From Planctomycetaceae bacterium (GTDB lineage: Bacteria > Planctomycetota > Planctomycetia > Planctomycetales > Planctomycetaceae), in assembly GCA_021732785.1 (NCBI GenBank), contig JAKFUG010000062.1, positions 1-49,182 of the forward strand: a stretch of DNA of 49,182 nucleotides, written 5' to 3'. The notes below the pieces were generated by a model. That model was given only the letters and a program-made list of their open reading frames with translations. It ran no database searches and was not told the origin of the DNA. The position numbers were made by a program, and so were the translations under genes. This document shows, piece after piece, positions 2,755-43,361 of the stretch (position 1 is its first letter; every line of letters starts with the position of its first letter).

Positions 2755-4134
2755 TCACACTGTGACATCGATTTCGTAGCCCTTGCGTTGTTCGCGGGTG
2801 AGCCACTTGTTGGCATCTTCGTCACCGACAATCTGCTCGGTCTTCGAATCCCAGTTGATCTTGCGACCGAGGCGGATGGCGATGTTCGCGAGATGGCACG
2901 TCGTCATCGCGCGGTGATGCGAATAGACGTCGGAGATCGGATCGGTCCGGTCGGCGACGCACTCGAAGAAGTTGCCCATGTGGTTGCCGGGCTTCTTCCC
3001 CTTGTAGAGTTTTTGCAGGTCTTCCTCGGTGATGGGCTTGTCCTTCAGCGCTTCGACGGGAGCCCCCTTCATGCCGCCGCGGCTGACGTGGAAGCGGCCT
3101 TCGGTGCCTTCGAAGAGAATCCCGTTGCCATCCTTGGAGTTGCTGACGATGTGCATTTCGACATCGCCGGGACACATCACCGTCACATCGAATTTGGTGG
3201 CGGCGTTGTAGCAATCGTCCTTCTGCGGGACGCCGTTTTTGAACTCGCACGGATGTTCGGCGGTCCCTTCGAGGCTGAGCGGGCCGGTCTCATCGATGCC
3301 GAGCGCCCACGAGGCGATGTCGACATGGTGTGCGCCCCAGTCGGTCATCTTGCCGCCAGAGTATTCGTACCACCAGCGGAATTCGTAATGCGTGCGGGCG
3401 TGCGGATACTTCCCGCCGGAAGGACGGCTGCGGTATTCCGTCATCGGGGCTTGTCCGAGCCACATCTCCCAGTTCAATTCGGCGGGGACGTCCACCACGG
3501 GGATATCGTTCGCCGCCGCCGCCCCGCCGATGTCAACGATCAGTTTCTGCACCTTGCCGATGCGGCCCTGTTTGATCATCGAGACGGCTTTGAGGAAGTT
3601 GAGATTCATTTCGCTGCGCTGCTGCGTGCCCACCTGGAAGACGCGCTTCGTCTCTTGCAGGACTTTGCGAATCTGCTTCCCTTCATTGATGGTCAGGGTC
3701 AGCGGCTTTTCGCAGTAGACATCCTTGCCGGCCCGCATGGCGTCGATGGAAATCTTGCTGTGCCAGTGGTCGGGAGTGACAATCGTCACCACGTCGATAT
3801 CTTTGCGGTCGAGCAGCTTGCGATAGTCTTCATACATCTCGACCTGGGCGTCTTTGCCCTTTTTGGCCATCGCGTCCTTCACCTTGTCGCGGCCTTCTTC
3901 CATGTGCTTGCGGTCGACATCGCACACAGCCACACCATCGGAGTGATTCAACGCCCCGCCGACGACCTGATGCCAGCGGTCTCCCGTACCGATGCAGCCA
4001 AGCACCGGCCGACCGTTGACGAGGCTGTGACCCAGCGCGCGGTTTTGCGTGGTGGTGAACCAATAGGGCATCGTCGCGCCGGCGAGAGCGGCGGTCGATT
4101 TCAAAAAGTCACGACGCGTTGAACGAGTGGCCAT
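2755..4134 (-). CDS. Tat-exported Gfo/Idh/MocA-family oxidoreductase
   Basis: This 459-aa protein starts at ATG 4134, preceded by GAGGAAC at the proper distance; in-frame codons further upstream come from a repeat element and are not gene. Residues 5-12 (STRRDFLK) form a twin-arginine signal, so a folded, cofactor-loaded enzyme is exported. A Rossmann NAD(P) site follows (VLGCIGTGDR, about 44-53), then the family's EKP motif at 142-144 (YCEKPL), whose Lys is catalytic in characterised members. The C-terminal half is the alpha/beta substrate domain (GGKMTDWGAHHVDIASWALG). Planctomycetes carry many such proteins, thought to act on sugars or inositols. The exact substrate cannot be read, and no sugar operon surrounds it. 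Confidence 0.92.
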   Translation of the reverse strand: MATRSTRRDFLKSTAALAGATMPYWFTTTQNRALGHSLVNGRPVLGCIGTGDRWHQVVGGALNHSDGVAVCDVDRKHMEEGRDKVKDAMAKKGKDAQVEMYEDYRKLLDRKDIDVVTIVTPDHWHSKISIDAMRAGKDVYCEKPLTLTINEGKQIRKVLQETKRVFQVGTQQRSEMNLNFLKAVSMIKQGRIGKVQKLIVDIGGAAAANDIPVVDVPAELNWEMWLGQAPMTEYRSRPSGGKYPHARTHYEFRWWYEYSGGKMTDWGAHHVDIASWALGIDETGPLSLEGTAEHPCEFKNGVPQKDDCYNAATKFDVTVMCPGDVEMHIVSNSKDGNGILFEGTEGRFHVSRGGMKGAPVEALKDKPITEEDLQKLYKGKKPGNHMGNFFECVADRTDPISDVYSHHRAMTTCHLANIAIRLGRKINWDSKTEQIVGDEDANKWLTREQRKGYEIDVTV

Positions 4135-4214
4135 CGAGATGTTCCTCAGAAGTAGAATTTTCCGAACGGAGGCGTGGCGGAAAGTATACCGCTGCCGAAG
4201 GAAGGACGGAAAGC

Positions 4215-4473
4215 AGTGCAAAGTGGAAAATGTAAAATGATGAGTGCAAAGTGGACAAGGAAACTCGTTCCCACGCTCTGCGTGGGAACGCACGGCCGAG
4301 ACGCTCCGCGTCATCTTTCCCTCCAAACCAAGCGACGTCACGCGACGTAGAGCGTCGCCACCCTGCGTTCCCACGCAGAGCGTGGGAACGAGAAGAACGC
4401 TTTTCTGTCGGTACGCGCGGCCATATTCGTCATTCCATTTTGCAGTTTGCATTTTTCACTTCTCACTTTGCAC
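4215..4473. repeat. Nested inverted repeat, family E
   Basis: The inner pair is perfect over 27 bases: 4264-4290 (CTCGTTCCCACGCTCTGCGT plus GGGAACG) and 4366-4392. Each arm is itself palindromic around CGCTCTGCG. An outer, looser pair beginning GTGCAAAGTG (about 4216-4254) faces 4432-4473. The element fills the gap between the divergent oxidoreductase and cysH-like genes, so promoters for both must lie inside or beside it. It is not a gene; reading frames crossing it are chance. Confidence 0.85.
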
Positions 4474-25125: not shown

Positions 25126-25372
25126 GATTCACAGAAGGACACAGAGAGAACAGAAAGAAACAGGGGAAGAGAGAACCACGGAATACACGGAGGACACGGA
25201 AAGGAGAGAAACGGAGGACGGTTTCTTCCGAGAATCGCCGCGTGAATCGAAGGCCAGCACCCCGGCTGCTCAGAAGCAGCCGGGGTGCTTCTTCCGCTTT
25301 CCCGTGTCCTCTGTGTATTCCGTGGTTCCCTCTCTTTCTCCTTTCTGTGTTCATCTGCGTCTTCTGTGGATC
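25126..25372. repeat. Nested inverted repeat, families D and B (copy 2 / copy 1)
   Basis: Three shells nest about one centre. The outer arms are GATTCACAGAAG (25126-25137) and CTTCTGTGGATC (25361-25372). The middle arms carry ACCACGGAATACACGGAGG (25174 onward) and its inverse ending near 25330. The core is family B: AGCACCCCGGCTGCT (25256-25270), loop CAGA, and a perfect inverse (25275-25289). It lies between the divergent dehydrogenase and radical SAM genes, so it covers or borders both promoters. Open frames through it are chance. Confidence 0.87.
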
Positions 25373-33202: not shown

Positions 33203-33226
33203 CGGTGGATTTTCCGTCCTGGAGTT

Positions 33227-34468
33227 TTAGATCTCGACGATTTCGGCAAACGTCGATTGCGCTGTGGTGATCACCGCGCATTCTTCAATCGTAGCCAGAA
33301 ACCGTTCCACCTCGGTGACATCACTCAGAGGCACTGCAAACAGTTCTTCCACGAGGTCGCTGTCCAGTTTGCTCAACAGATAAATGCGGGCCCAATCGGC
33401 GGCCGCGGCCCATTGCGTGGCGGCTTGCAGGTCGGGCGGAGCTTCTTCACGCAGCGGCTGCAATGCGGCACGTGGCGAGGACTGACCACGCAGTTGTTCC
33501 ATGCCGGGACCAGGCGACGCTTGCAGGTCCGACAACACCACAATCTTTCCGCCATGTTCCACGACGTTATGGGCCACTTCGACCGCCCTGCCGACGTCAT
33601 TCCATGTGGCCGATTCTCCGACGGTGGGGACCGTCACGATCACCGTTTCCGCGCGGGCCGGCCATTGAACCCGCCACTCATCATTGAGTTGTTTCAGGAC
33701 TTGCCGCTGGACCGATTCCGCCCCGCCGGCAAGAACATCCGCCGTCGTGCCGCGACGACCTCCAGGGATGAGTTGTACGGCGAACTGCACACCCAGCAAC
33801 CAGCCGATTTCCTCGATCAATTGCCGCACCGAGCGGTCATCTTCCGGCTGGAGTTCCCGATGGCCTTGCCCGTGAGTTTTGGCAAAGGCTTCCGGAGTCG
33901 ACAATCCCGGATAAAGCACCGACATTGGCGATCGTGTCCCTTGCAGGGCGTCGAACCCCGCCAACGTGATGGGCAGCACAAAATCGGCTTCAAGAATTTT
34001 GTGCGACAGATAAACCCGCTCACCATCGGCGCTGGTCGCGAGATAACCGCACGCACCATCAACCGTGGGGTCGTGCGTTTCCCAGCGGACTTCGGTGCGA
34101 ATCGCTTCCGGAAGTTGGCTGCGCGGGTCGATCCGCTGGGCGGAATTCGTCCAGCCGCCGGGTTGCAGGATCAGCACATCTTGCGGGCGGATACCGCTTT
34201 CGGCGAGCACCGGCCAGATACCGGCAACCACTTCCGCCGCGAGAGGCAGCCCGCGATCGACCGCCAGGACCACCCGATCGCCGGACACCAGCGCCGTGCT
34301 CAGCGGCGGGAAATCGAGCGGTTGCGTCAACCCGGCGCGTACCGCCGCCGCCGCATCCACGGTTTGCTCCGGCCCGGAATGATGCAACACCACCTGATCG
34401 GCCCGCGGCGTCCATTCCCAGGTTCCATCGCATCCAAATTCGAACACCCACTTCATCACGATCGGCAT
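33227..34468 (-). CDS. LarA-like (DUF2088) protein, possibly not NPN-dependent
   Basis: This 413-aa protein starts at ATG 34468 (MPIVMKWVFEF); TTG one codon earlier is possible. It resembles the nickel-pincer lactate racemase family: PPLSTALVSGDRVVLAVDRG, SGIRPQDVLILQPGG, then ETHDPTVDGACGYLATSADG and YLSHKILEADFVLPI. In LarA an internal Lys in a GG(x)KS-type loop bonds the pincer cofactor. At the matching place here the sequence is LQGTRSPMSVLYPGLST, with no Lys, so cofactor attachment may be absent or different. No larB, larC or larE gene is nearby. It is likely co-transcribed with the DUF218 gene and reads away from an ECF sigma gene. Confidence 0.75.
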   Translation of the reverse strand: MPIVMKWVFEFGCDGTWEWTPRADQVVLHHSGPEQTVDAAAAVRAGLTQPLDFPPLSTALVSGDRVVLAVDRGLPLAAEVVAGIWPVLAESGIRPQDVLILQPGGWTNSAQRIDPRSQLPEAIRTEVRWETHDPTVDGACGYLATSADGERVYLSHKILEADFVLPITLAGFDALQGTRSPMSVLYPGLSTPEAFAKTHGQGHRELQPEDDRSVRQLIEEIGWLLGVQFAVQLIPGGRRGTTADVLAGGAESVQRQVLKQLNDEWRVQWPARAETVIVTVPTVGESATWNDVGRAVEVAHNVVEHGGKIVVLSDLQASPGPGMEQLRGQSSPRAALQPLREEAPPDLQAATQWAAAADWARIYLLSKLDSDLVEELFAVPLSDVTEVERFLATIEECAVITTAQSTFAEIVEI

Positions 34469-38720: not shown

Positions 38721-41700
38721 TCAAGAAATCAACGGACGAGGAATACGAGAGGGATGATTCGGGGACGAGTTCCGGCGGGATTTCTTCGTAGCGGATTCGT
38801 TGGCATCGGGCATTTCATCGGATGGAGTCTCATCGGGCTCGACAGGTTCGGCGATCCCCAGCAAAGTGGCGCGGATCGCCCCTTTTTCCTCGCGCGACAG
38901 CGATTCCAGCAACCAGACCACTTCGCCACCCTGCACAGCGGCGACGGCAATTCCCTCTCGATAGGCCACGCGGTTTGACGCCGACGCGGGCACGCGCGGG
39001 GGCTCGGTGAGGATGCCGACGAAATTGAGCGGATCGGCGGCAGAGATCGCAATGATAGTCGGAGTCGGCGCGGGATCGCGGAACTGTCGAAGTTGCTGAA
39101 CGGTGGATTCCAGGGCGAATTGCTCTCCGGCGACACCGGTGATAAAGCGGCCGCCGCGGAGTTCGCCGCGAGCTTCCAACCGGCGGAAGATCGGTACCAG
39201 TTCCCACCATTTCGGGGCTCCGTCCTCGACGGCGAGCAGGTCACGAAACACCACCCCCCAGCGACGAATGAGTTGCCACGCCCATGACTGCAACCGCTCG
39301 GCCCGATTTTCCGCGGTGAACGATTCCCGCGCGCGCCGCCACAGCGACCACCGCCCGGCCACACCGTTCAGTGGTCGCCGTCGCATCAGTCCCTTCGGCT
39401 CGGACCGCACCGCACGACCGGTGATGTCGCGACGTTCGGCAATGAGTGATCGCAGTCCGACAAACGAATCGGCGGTGACCAAACCTCGCGCGATCAGTTC
39501 TCCCAGCGCGTCTTCCAGATGCGTGGGCAACATGCGTGTCGTCGCTAACAGATCGGTCGCGAACAAAGCGCCGTCTTTCGTCAGGTGCTCCCGGACTTCA
39601 TCGGCCAACCCGCGCAGCACTTCCGGCACGGCATCCGCCTCGACCGACATCAACCACGGGAGATCGCCCCGCAGAAACAGCGCGATCGGCACCACTCGTG
39701 TTACGCCCGTCGAGCGCGGCTTTTCGGGATCGGCTGTCGGAGGAAAGAGCCGCCCCCAGCCGACTTCACCCGCCAGGCACAACTCATCAATCCAGCCAGG
39801 TTGATAGTTGTGTAACCGCGCAGGCAGGATATCGCGCTCCCATGTCACCGCGGGGAAATCCAGTCCTTGCAACTGCGCGATGACTTCATACAAACCGTTG
39901 ATACCAGTGCGTGGCTCGTCGGTGTTGAGCCCATGATAATGGAACAGGAATCGCTGAAACGCCGGGACATCGACCGCAGCGATTTGCTTTCGCAACCCGG
40001 CGAGGGTGAGCCGATGAATCCGCGCGAGCAGCCGCCGATGACACCAGTCGAGCGGTGTGTCTTGTCCATCCGCAGTTATCCCGTGTGCCACTGGCTCTGC
40101 CAGTGTCTTCTCTTCGATAAATCGATCGTCATCGTTAAGACGGAAGACACTGGCGGAGCCAGTGGCACACGATGATTGTCCCTCTGTAGTGCGCGGCCGA
40201 TACCGCCCGCGCATCACGGTCCCTTCGCCTTCGAGGGCTTCGAGAATCGCCGCCGTTTGGGAAGGTGTCCAACCCAGCCACGCGGCAAGTTCCTCCGCGG
40301 TAACCGGACCGCAGATTTCCATCCATCCGCGGGCCGTGGCAATGCGCGCGGCAATCGAATCGACTTCCGTCACAATGCCGCTCGGGAGCACATATCCCGC
40401 GGGCAAAGCGTCAGCGATTCCCAACGCTTGCACGAAGGCAAACCGTTCGGTGGCGACCCAGGCAGTCCGTCCATCGGGCAAAGCAGCGGACCATGCCCGG
40501 CGCTCGGCAATGAGTTCGTCGAACCAGGACTGCATCCCGGCTGCTTCTTCGCAGCCGGGCTGCTCGTCGGTGGGAACCGCGCGGGTTGTAACATCGAGCA
40601 TCCCGGCCGCCAGGAAGCAGCCGGGATGCGATGCTCCTCCGATTGGCCAAACGACGACACCGAGCAGCAGATCGTGCAATTCATCGCGATTGCGGACCAG
40701 CGGCGTGGCTTCCCGCACGACTTGCTGCATGGCGGCGGGATCCAGCCACGTGAGATCGGGTGTATCGGTGGTGATCTCCGAACCGGTCGCCACCACGCGA
40801 GCCCGCCGTTCCTGAATCTCGCCGCCATCCAGAAACGCATACGGATACGCATTCAACAGTTCGTAACAGAACGGCGACGGTTCGCGGGTATCGCGCGGGA
40901 TGAGCTTGATGTCCCCGCTTTCGATCCGCTTCAAGACTTTGATTAAACCGTCGAGGTCGAGTGCTTCGTGCAGACAATCGTGCATCGTCTGTCGAATCAA
41001 TGGATGATCCGGCAGTTCGATATCCCCGGTGTGATTTTCAAGGCAGCCGGTCAATTGTGGAAAGACGCTGGTCAGCAGATCGTCACTGCGAAACCGTTGC
41101 AGCGCTGGCGGGACTTTCTTGCCGAACTTTTGCCGCATCACGAAGAGCGATCGCGTGACGTTCCACCGCCAGCGCAATTGAAACGGCGGCTGCACGAGAA
41201 TGGCCTGTTCGAGCAGCCCTTGCACGTTCTCGCTGGTGAGCATGCCGAACAGGCTTTCCAGCGGGAAGCTGTGCTGCGGCCCGAGTGAAAGAATCACGCC
41301 ATCGTCATCCGCAGTCGCCTGCAATTCGAAGTCGAAACTGCGGCAGAATCGCTTGCGCAGGGCATAGCCCCAGGCGCGATTGATCGCTGAACCAAATGGC
41401 GCATGGATCACCAGTTGCATGCCGCCCGATTCATCGAAGAATCGCTCGAAGACGACGCGCTGTTGTGTCGGCACGACTCCAATGGCCGCCTGTTGCGAGC
41501 GGACATATTCGACGAATTCTTCGGCGACCAGCGGAGCGATCGATGCTTCCACAGACAACCACGCGGCAGCAGCGGCGGGGTCATCGAGCCGCGCGACGAG
41601 ATCATCCCGCAGCCTCGAGATTTCTTCGGACAGCTCCAGCGTGCGACCCGGCGCTTCCCCGAACCAGAACGGAATGCTCGGCGGCGCATTGTGGGCATCG

Positions 41701-43361
41701 CTGACGACCACATCACCGGTGCGGACATGTTCGATGCGCCATGATGTGTTGCCCAGCAGAAACACATCACCGCGGGTACTTTCGACGGCGAAGTCTTCAT
41801 CGACAGAACCGATGACCGTGTTCTCCGGCAGCGCGACGACCCGGTATTGCCCGGTTTCGGGGATGGCCCCGGCGTTGCCGATGGCGGCCATTTTTGCCGC
41901 CGGACGAGCTTTCACACGCTGACCGACGCGGTCGTGATACAGCAGCGATCGGCTGCGCCCCGCGTTCTCGGTGAAGCCCTCGCTGCACATCTTCAGTGCA
42001 TCATCCCATGCTTGTCGCGTGAGGTTTCGATACGGATACGCCCGGCGGACGAGGGCCAGCAAGTCTTCCGATGAGGCTTCGTCAGCAGAGGTTTCGGCAA
42101 CGATTTGCTGGACGAGAATATCGAGCGGGGCTTCGGGGACGCGCAGGGCATCGAGAATCCCGCTGCGGACCGCGCGGATCAACGCCGCACATTCGCCGAG
42201 TTCATCCCGCGTGAGGGCAAATAATCGGCACTTGGGGATGGCATGCAGCGAGTGTCCGGCCCGCCCCGTCCGTTGCAGAAACGCCGCAATCGACCGCGGC
42301 GAGCCGATCTGGATGACGAGATCGATGTAGCCGATATCGATGCCCAACTCCAGCGACGCCGTCGCCACGACGGCTTTGATCTCACCGTGCTTGAGCCGTT
42401 GTTCCGTCTTGAGCCGGATCTCCGTCGACAGCGACCCGTGGTGGCTGCTGACCTGATCTTCACCCAGCAATTCGCTCAATTGATGGGTCAACCGTTCGGC
42501 CATGCGGCGAGTGTTGACGAAAATCAAAGTGCTGCGGTGTTCCTGCACCAGTTCGACGAGTCGCTGATCAACGATGGCCCATTGTTCGTGCGTGCAAACC
42601 GCACCCAGACCCGCAAACGGGACTTCAATGGCGAGGTCCAATTGCCGTTGATGACCGACATCCACGACGGTGCATTGATGCAGTTCCGGCAGCGTGTTCT
42701 CGGGCGGCGAACCGATGAGAAAATTGGCAACGAGTTCCAGCGGCTTCTGCGTGGCCGACAGCCCAATTCGTTGAATCGGCCGGGTGCTGAGTTTCGCCAG
42801 CCGTTCCAGACTGAGCGATAAATGCGAGCCCCGTTTGTCCCGCAGCAAGGCGTGAATTTCATCGACGATGACGGTGTCGACATTGCCCAGCCGCTCGCGG
42901 CCTTTGGTCGTGGTCAGCAGCAGGTACAGCGACTCCGGCGTCGTCACCAGAATGTGTGGCGGCTTTCGCAACAACGCCGCCCGCGCACTCGCGGTGGTGT
43001 CGCCGGTACGAAGTCCCACACGCAATGTGGGAAACGGCAGGCCCATCAATTCGGCGAGCGATGCGATCTCACCGAGCGGTTGTTGCAGGTTCCGCTGCAT
43101 GTCATTCGACAACGCCCGCAGCGGGGAAACATAGACCACACGGATTTCATCCGGCAGGGGTGTTTCCAATGATTCCCGCACGAGGCGATCGATGACGGCC
43201 AGAAACGCCGTGAGCGTTTTTCCCGAACCCGTCGGGGCCGTAATCAGCGTGTGTTCCCCCGCGGCAATGGCCGGCCAACCGCGTTGCTGCGGCTCCGTCG
43301 GTCCGGCAAACCGTCCGTTGAACCAACGCTGAATCAGCGGATGAAATTCCATTTCTGCCAT
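38721..43361 (-). CDS. lhr: Lhr-family DEAD/DEAH-box helicase with two repeat insertions
   Basis: This 1546-aa protein starts at ATG 43361 (MAEMEFHPLIQRWF). Walker A is APTGSGKT (42-49), motif II DEIH (167-170), GLSATQ for motif III, and QRTGRAGHS for motif VI, as in Lhr (large helicase-related) proteins. The Lhr core is followed by winged-helix and beta-barrel domains (GDVFLLGNTSWRIEHV; PFWFGEAPGRTLELS), matching the long bacterial form. Lhr unwinds RNA/DNA hybrids and acts in DNA repair. Two palindromic repeats add extra peptide in frame: about 912-944 (HPGCFLAAGML ... QPGCEEAAGM) and 1062-1094 (SCATGSASVF ... KTLAEPVAHG). No stop is introduced. The C-terminal tail is low complexity. Confidence 0.93.
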   Translation of the reverse strand: MAEMEFHPLIQRWFNGRFAGPTEPQQRGWPAIAAGEHTLITAPTGSGKTLTAFLAVIDRLVRESLETPLPDEIRVVYVSPLRALSNDMQRNLQQPLGEIASLAELMGLPFPTLRVGLRTGDTTASARAALLRKPPHILVTTPESLYLLLTTTKGRERLGNVDTVIVDEIHALLRDKRGSHLSLSLERLAKLSTRPIQRIGLSATQKPLELVANFLIGSPPENTLPELHQCTVVDVGHQRQLDLAIEVPFAGLGAVCTHEQWAIVDQRLVELVQEHRSTLIFVNTRRMAERLTHQLSELLGEDQVSSHHGSLSTEIRLKTEQRLKHGEIKAVVATASLELGIDIGYIDLVIQIGSPRSIAAFLQRTGRAGHSLHAIPKCRLFALTRDELGECAALIRAVRSGILDALRVPEAPLDILVQQIVAETSADEASSEDLLALVRRAYPYRNLTRQAWDDALKMCSEGFTENAGRSRSLLYHDRVGQRVKARPAAKMAAIGNAGAIPETGQYRVVALPENTVIGSVDEDFAVESTRGDVFLLGNTSWRIEHVRTGDVVVSDAHNAPPSIPFWFGEAPGRTLELSEEISRLRDDLVARLDDPAAAAAWLSVEASIAPLVAEEFVEYVRSQQAAIGVVPTQQRVVFERFFDESGGMQLVIHAPFGSAINRAWGYALRKRFCRSFDFELQATADDDGVILSLGPQHSFPLESLFGMLTSENVQGLLEQAILVQPPFQLRWRWNVTRSLFVMRQKFGKKVPPALQRFRSDDLLTSVFPQLTGCLENHTGDIELPDHPLIRQTMHDCLHEALDLDGLIKVLKRIESGDIKLIPRDTREPSPFCYELLNAYPYAFLDGGEIQERRARVVATGSEITTDTPDLTWLDPAAMQQVVREATPLVRNRDELHDLLLGVVVWPIGGASHPGCFLAAGMLDVTTRAVPTDEQPGCEEAAGMQSWFDELIAERRAWSAALPDGRTAWVATERFAFVQALGIADALPAGYVLPSGIVTEVDSIAARIATARGWMEICGPVTAEELAAWLGWTPSQTAAILEALEGEGTVMRGRYRPRTTEGQSSCATGSASVFRLNDDDRFIEEKTLAEPVAHGITADGQDTPLDWCHRRLLARIHRLTLAGLRKQIAAVDVPAFQRFLFHYHGLNTDEPRTGINGLYEVIAQLQGLDFPAVTWERDILPARLHNYQPGWIDELCLAGEVGWGRLFPPTADPEKPRSTGVTRVVPIALFLRGDLPWLMSVEADAVPEVLRGLADEVREHLTKDGALFATDLLATTRMLPTHLEDALGELIARGLVTADSFVGLRSLIAERRDITGRAVRSEPKGLMRRRPLNGVAGRWSLWRRARESFTAENRAERLQSWAWQLIRRWGVVFRDLLAVEDGAPKWWELVPIFRRLEARGELRGGRFITGVAGEQFALESTVQQLRQFRDPAPTPTIIAISAADPLNFVGILTEPPRVPASASNRVAYREGIAVAAVQGGEVVWLLESLSREEKGAIRATLLGIAEPVEPDETPSDEMPDANESATKKSRRNSSPNHPSRIPRPLIS
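40083..40170. repeat. Palindromic repeat inside lhr, family C
   Basis: 28-base arms, 40083-40110 (GTGTGCCACTGGCTCTGCCA...) and 40143-40170, are inverted copies with one mismatch. Each arm is itself palindromic (CACTGGC TCT GCCAGTG). The element lies in the coding frame and is read through, adding about 29 residues between RGRYRPRTTEG and the WCHRRLLARIHRL block, which are normally close together in Lhr proteins. Confidence 0.88.
40532..40629. repeat. Palindromic repeat inside lhr, family B-like
   Basis: 16-base outer arms are perfect: GCATCCCGGCTGCTTC (40532-40547) and its inverse (40614-40629). An inner CCCGGCTGC...GCAGCCGGG hairpin (40536-40559) lies at the left. The core CCCGGCTGCT is shared with family B at 25261, 26500 and 31838. 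The insert is read in frame and adds Cys- and Gly-rich peptide after VVVWPIGGA. Confidence 0.85.

Follow-up and report, generated by a model that had tools for sequence, protein, structure and literature searches.

The 88-bp palindrome at positions 40083-40170 of the window (the whole stretch of 49,182 nucleotides that was analysed) is very probably a REPIN-like, non-autonomous mobile element, whose palindromic DNA has been preserved and whose peptide is tolerated, and not used, in a linker of the host protein. It consists of two REP units placed head to head, lies on the minus strand and encodes, in frame, residues 1064-1093 of Lhr (large helicase-related). The preliminary description had seen here a selfish repeat tolerated in a protein surface loop, and a selfish-type repeat tolerated in a loop does agree with the many copies found in the genome, with the variable linker of Lhr and with ten other genes in which sampled copies were found in frame.

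As read from the sequence, the element starts with GTGTGCC at 40083 and ends with GGCACAC at 40170, and the coordinates given earlier for an 88-bp palindrome proved exact, with sharp edges. Its first arm (40083-40110, plus strand) is a REP unit, GTGT-GCCACTGGC-TCT-GCCAGTG-TCTTC, with a 7-bp hairpin of its own; the second (40143-40170, minus strand) is the same unit inverted, with the loop TCC, and the spacer between both units (40111-40142) differs among copies. The near-perfect arms, reported to differ at one position, were recovered by repeat search as 29-nt stretches (40082-40110 and 40143-40171) that were 97% complementary, with one mismatch, and stood 32 nt apart. Folding of the element with short flanks as DNA gave a z-score of -12.4, and the RNA fold reached -61.4 kcal/mol (z -12.2); in both cases none of 200 shuffled sequences equalled it. 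The consensus arm has no stops in any of the six frames. Search of the element against Rfam returned no family at gathering score, and the ten matches with E up to 1, all of them to microRNA models and far under their gathering scores, were taken as chance hits on hairpins.

The host is an ORF of 1546 aa on the minus strand (38721-43361), with Pfam matches over the cut-off to DEAD, Helicase_C, WH_Lhr, DEAD_assoc, WH3_Lhr and WH4_Lhr. Its frame stays open across the element, in accordance with the earlier claim that peptide was added without a stop, and the translated stretch, residues 1064-1093, reads SCATGSASVFRLNDDDRFIEEKTLAEPVAH, with a predicted tryptic peptide TLAEPVAHGITADGQDTPLDWCHR. 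It is flanked by the blocks RGRYRPR on one side and WCHRRLLARIHRL on the other, which confirms the placement between conserved Lhr blocks. Lhr was matched in 42 of 61 genomes searched, and the stretch RGRF...WCHRRLL varied greatly in length among the 27 relatives amenable to parsing. The peptide of the insert was absent from all 27; its presence in relatives devoid of the repeat, named beforehand as the finding that would count against an insertion, was encountered in none of them. The proposed alignment with relatives did not yield a clean empty site at single-base resolution, the linker being too variable in length. The nearest Lhr, RI_361, has about 41 residues fewer, which exceeds what the element explains, and the structure PDB 7lhl_A has 6 residues at the linker position as against 49 in the Lhr of the window. 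It should be added that the repeat core is also present in frame in an Lhr from another genus (G004, locus L099), as two GCCACTGGCTATGCCAGTG units at two separate places, reverse-complement positions 1402 and 2998, with longer similar peptides around them; one of the two lies in the same linker.

The element belongs to a repeat family with the unit structure GTGT-GCCACTGGC-NNN-GCCAGTG-TCTT, every arm being itself a small hairpin. In the genome of the window (6.69 Mb, 96 contigs), BLAST with the Lhr element gave at least 86 matches, with 40 of 166 candidate places scored and with the palindrome able to match either strand. The hairpin core with up to two mismatches was found 299 + 303 times in this genome (control, 64 + 64), and exact head-to-head dimers 72 times, as against 0 for the control pattern. 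Grouping of the 100 exact cores among the matches listed yielded 59 elements, namely 41 pairs in the +- arrangement, 18 single units and no pair in the -+ arrangement. Both features that define REP- and REPIN-like sequences were seen, i.e. a short hairpin in high copy number and inverted units with a short spacer. The outer end was remarkably constant in the sampled loci described below: among 138 arms of 69 distinct dimers, 128 started exactly with GTGTGCCA, with positions conserved at 97-100%, and outside the dimer ends there was a mild pyrimidine preference. Exact dimers were present in 26 of 101 genomes from the same taxonomic family and in 18 of 58 genera, at 1 to 89 copies, with control counts of 0 in every genome; two genomes of the same genus as that of the window, G001 and G002, had six each. 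The dimer tail was GTGT in G073 and the congeners and GGGT-like in G023 and G037.

Inspection of copies in their surroundings covered 74 loci, each with about 1.5 kb on either side (shorter at contig ends), which correspond to 72 distinct copies, 69 dimers and 3 single units (L111 is identical to L012, and L115 to L006; removal of the two repeated loci left the outcome unaltered). The sample comprised the 59 elements from contigs C1 to part of C11, derived from the 100 exact cores among the matches listed, and 13 further copies that entered via their likeness to the copy of the window or to its peptide. Copies were regarded as in frame if they passed a codon-usage filter, which required a stop-free frame that extended over 100 codons or more upstream and 60 or more downstream, with both flanks scoring above 0. 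Twelve loci passed, one of which (L134) was dropped as an antisense-looking ORF without Pfam match. The count inside coding sequence that had been suggested at the outset is hence 11 of 72 distinct sampled copies, in Lhr and ten other genes, with most sampled copies outside readable genes. Seven of the 11 proteins have a Pfam family over the cut-off, and six of the 11 copies fall within the set of 59 elements. Apart from Lhr, the hosts are a DUF2079 membrane protein (L003), a permease-like protein named by eye (L005), a YfhO-like protein below the cut-off (L009), a molybdopterin oxidoreductase (L017), LpxK (L024), a CoA transferase (L104), an M56 peptidase (L129), Mfd (L155) and the proteins at L139 and L167. 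The same kind of filter, with its codon model trained on the genome of the window, let through none of the 39 exact dimers from G023, G037, G073 and G012, nor any of the 12 from G001 and G002; two in-frame inserts that G002 shares with the genome of the window are not exact dimers by the search pattern.

The in-frame copies follow a length rule. Ten of the 11 have a length of 1 modulo 3, as against 17 of the other 58 distinct dimers (Fisher P 2e-4), the latter being spread over lengths of 0, 1 and 2 modulo 3 as 22, 17 and 19. With the dropped locus L134 included, the proportion is 10/12 (P 9e-4); among the Pfam-supported copies it is 7/7, and the sole exception is the 87-nt copy of the permease-like protein. 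Since the copies are in frame and their length is 1 modulo 3, the net gain is constant, at length plus 2 modulo 3, which is what would be seen if the target supplied 4 nt of the element.

Uninterrupted sites in relatives were consistent with insertion at three genes and allowed the net gain to be measured. Of 10 genomes searched for the oxidoreductase, 5 gave a match. The insert occupies the same site in G002 and is missing from G003, G031 and G053; G012 was left out of the comparison as too distant. Here the net gain is exactly 28 codons, i.e. 84 nt for the 88-nt copy. In Mfd (13 of 14 genomes matched) the corresponding interval is 42 aa in 12 of 12 parsed orthologues as against 78 aa here, and the net gain is 108 nt versus an element of 82 nt. 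LpxK was matched in 10 of 10 genomes, the insert is missing in the three that were read as DNA (G001, G002 and G003), and the gain is again 108 nt, versus an element of 88 nt; the lengths in Mfd and LpxK were counted by hand. Net gain equals length minus 4 at one of the three measured sites, the oxidoreductase, and not in Mfd and LpxK, where the gains of 108 nt mean that further bases were acquired or lost. Intergenic empty sites could not be read base by base between G002 and the genome of the window, their divergence being too high. G002 has a separate copy (L121) at a place that corresponds to about 33205-33234 of the window; the window lacks this copy, and its exact site could not be read because of the divergence of the flanks.

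Two inserts, those of the oxidoreductase and the CoA transferase, are common to G002 and were compared for selection. The oxidoreductase insert has dN 0.096 and dS 0.05 (flanks, dN 0.059 and dS 0.744), and the insert of the CoA transferase has dN 0.239 and dS 0.146 (flanks, 0.097 and 0.923). Pooled Fisher tests, run on rounded whole changes in two inserts with about 40 synonymous sites, indicated fewer synonymous changes (P 3e-7) and a higher nonsynonymous share (P 1e-6) than in the flanks. In the oxidoreductase insert, 2 of the 54 positions in the arms differ and 5 of the 34 in the spacer; between the CoA transferase copies, the spacer differs by 9 nt and the sequence directly beyond the element by 3 nt, each of these differences keeping the frame. 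In these two inserts it looks as if the palindromic DNA, rather than the peptide, is preserved, via conversion or hairpin constraint. No second copy of the Lhr insert was found for a dN/dS estimate.

The low dS of the two shared inserts, together with the very stable RNA hairpin (-61.4 kcal/mol), could also be explained by a hairpin that acts as RNA or DNA within the gene, for instance because it slows translation from one domain to the next, binds a protein or serves in recombination. We consider such a role unlikely, albeit the strongest of the competing explanations: copies occur at unrelated sites, most of the sampled ones outside readable genes, Rfam holds no family for the element at gathering score, and low dS is likewise predicted by gene conversion among copies.

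Less probable still is that the insert has been co-opted as a functional loop or regulatory segment of Lhr, held by selection on the peptide. In its favour, the hosts include the repair helicases Lhr and Mfd, and 8 of the 11 in-frame copies are read in one and the same frame (frame 1, CATGSASVF...EKTLAEPVAH; P 0.009), as are 7 of 10 without the copy of the window (P 0.02). The frame bias, however, is weak after removal of the similarity-biased loci (4/6 in the subset from C1 to C11, P 0.10), and in other copies of length 1 modulo 3, frame 1 is stop-free in 28 of 34 cases and the other frames in 22 and 23, which may account for part of the bias. Furthermore, dN exceeds dS inside the two shared inserts (neither being that of Lhr), the same peptide is found in unrelated proteins, and the 27 parsed Lhr relatives do without it. 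The three copies read in frame 2 all have hosts that look like membrane proteins, partly by eye. A fold-back misassembly or a random palindrome, conceivable in a draft of 96 contigs, can be dismissed in view of the fold against shuffled sequences, the 72 exact dimers with spacers differing among those listed and a control of 0, the two inserts at the same sites in G002, and the frame open between highly conserved Lhr blocks.

In the main reading, that of a tolerated, REPIN-like mobile palindrome, the element is made up of two REP hairpins with outer GTGT tags, in head-to-head orientation on either side of a spacer some tens of nucleotides long, and would be moved by a transposase acting in trans. 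A 4-nt target may be kept at insertion, as suggested by the 84 nt net for the 88-nt copy at one site. Intragenic copies would survive where the net length is a multiple of three, the frame open and the site permissive, and the palindrome would be renewed through conversion or constraint. In Lhr, the insert would lengthen the linker that leads from a winged-helix-like region to the part starting WCHRRLL, and the protein presumably still works with it. A more speculative extension, which we put forward as tentative and rather doubtful, is that the palindrome is suited to gene interiors, with stop-free arms, a fixed length rule and DNA renewed by gene conversion while the peptide drifts, so that a single genome draws on interchangeable repeat families to build linkers in many of its proteins.

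As for the class of the element and its mover, several candidates were rejected. Flank matches scoring at least 8 were found in 2 of the 72 distinct copies, as against 2.8% in shuffled pairs, and a MITE of a DDE transposase was discarded on this lack of target-site duplication across the 72 copies. The flanks of the Lhr copy, with an imperfect match of 12/15 bases, are one of the two at that score, as chance predicts; partly duplicated-looking bases are seen at single sites, in Lhr and LpxK. Assignment to the GTAG or the CGTC superfamily was likewise rejected, the outer end starting with GTGT and with neither GTAG nor CGTC. The genome has 11 Y1_Tnp matches, 8 of them over the cut-off. A near-intact dimer of the GTGT family was seen at only one of these loci (L031), at a distance of about 1.25 kb from the Y1 match. 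The Y1 transposase at C12:43834 (L039), with two diverged units upstream, was considered as the mover and rejected, since it does not co-occur with dimers: its relatives are present in 24 of 101 genomes, 6 of them in common with the 26 dimer genomes, where 6.2 are expected (Fisher P 1), and no units of the GTGT family were seen near 15 inspected loci. No partner RAYT transposase was identified for the GTGT family, C12:43834 being the only candidate tested for co-occurrence.

REPINs consist of two inverted REP units with a short spacer, can form one long hairpin and occur in many copies per genome. The GTGT family resembles them in pairing inverted REP units around a short spacer in many copies; it differs in the absence of an identified partner RAYT and in the share of copies in frame in genes. 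Rickettsia palindromic elements (RPE) are palindromic repeats found in frame in likely functional proteins, to which they add peptide. They are comparable to the present family by mode, an in-frame palindrome supplying extra peptide in both, and the hosts are different.

Intragenic GTAG- and CGTC-tagged REPs, some of them in frame, have already been published, and according to the passages considered of PMC3733652 (BMC Genomics 2013, 14:522), over half of them in the species with most are dimers or groups encoding 20-30 aa. Many lie in repair genes, RNA helicases are also among the hosts, and neutral linkers are offered there as one reading; RPE-1 is placed among longer palindromic insertions, and RPE-4 and RPE-6 are described as CGTC-tagged. 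Like those REPs, the present elements are hairpins, often head-to-head dimers, read in frame inside proteins; unlike them, they bear a GTGT outer tag (GGGT-like in G023 and G037) in place of GTAG or CGTC. The length rule, the empty-site lengths and dN/dS given here are absent from the same passages of PMC3733652. A search of open-licence literature (titles and abstract starts) found neither a GTGT-tagged REP family nor planctomycete in-frame palindromes. In-frame REPs as such are already known; nothing in the literature searched corresponded to the GTGT-tagged family or to the measurements given here.

Bacteria are known to add peptide to their proteins by way of in-frame palindromic repeats, a route that has been little measured. 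One genome here offers many parallel cases, together with relatives whose sites are uninterrupted and two inserts of sufficient age for measurement; selection on the DNA and on the peptide is separable, which makes the question of whether such inserts are used or tolerated directly testable. Moreover, different repeat families settle in the same proteins, two each in Lhr and LpxK, and GTGT- and GTAG-type copies in L003 and L167.

Repeat search revealed a second in-frame palindrome in Lhr (40519-40642, minus strand), of another family, reading HPGCFLAAGM...QPGCEEAAGM, around which the Lhr of RI_361 is shorter. This second family (PGCFxAAG...PGCxEAG) is in frame in both Lhr and LpxK and is missing from the LpxK of G002; single copies of AGCACCCCGGCTGCT-N4-AGCAGCCGGGGTGCT and its variants lie at 25258, 26497 and 31835 of the window, and a Y1 transposase ORF at G000:C8:83152 (L036) has units of this second family on either side. 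In L003 and L167 (G000, C5 and C12), in-frame GTAG-type dimers stand beside the in-frame GTGT-family copies. They are marked by the sequences GTAGCCCTGTCGC... and GTAGCCCTGTCGCTCCGCGACAGG..., encode the peptide PVAPRQESR... and retain one intact GTAG end in each locus; GTAG-type units also flank both sides of the Y1 match at C37:50090. Finally, a 49-nt inverted repeat (CTCGTTCCCACGCTCTGCGTGGGAACG...) was observed at 4264-4392 of the window, inside a minus-strand ORF (2755-4452) and near its start, and is perhaps another repeat family.
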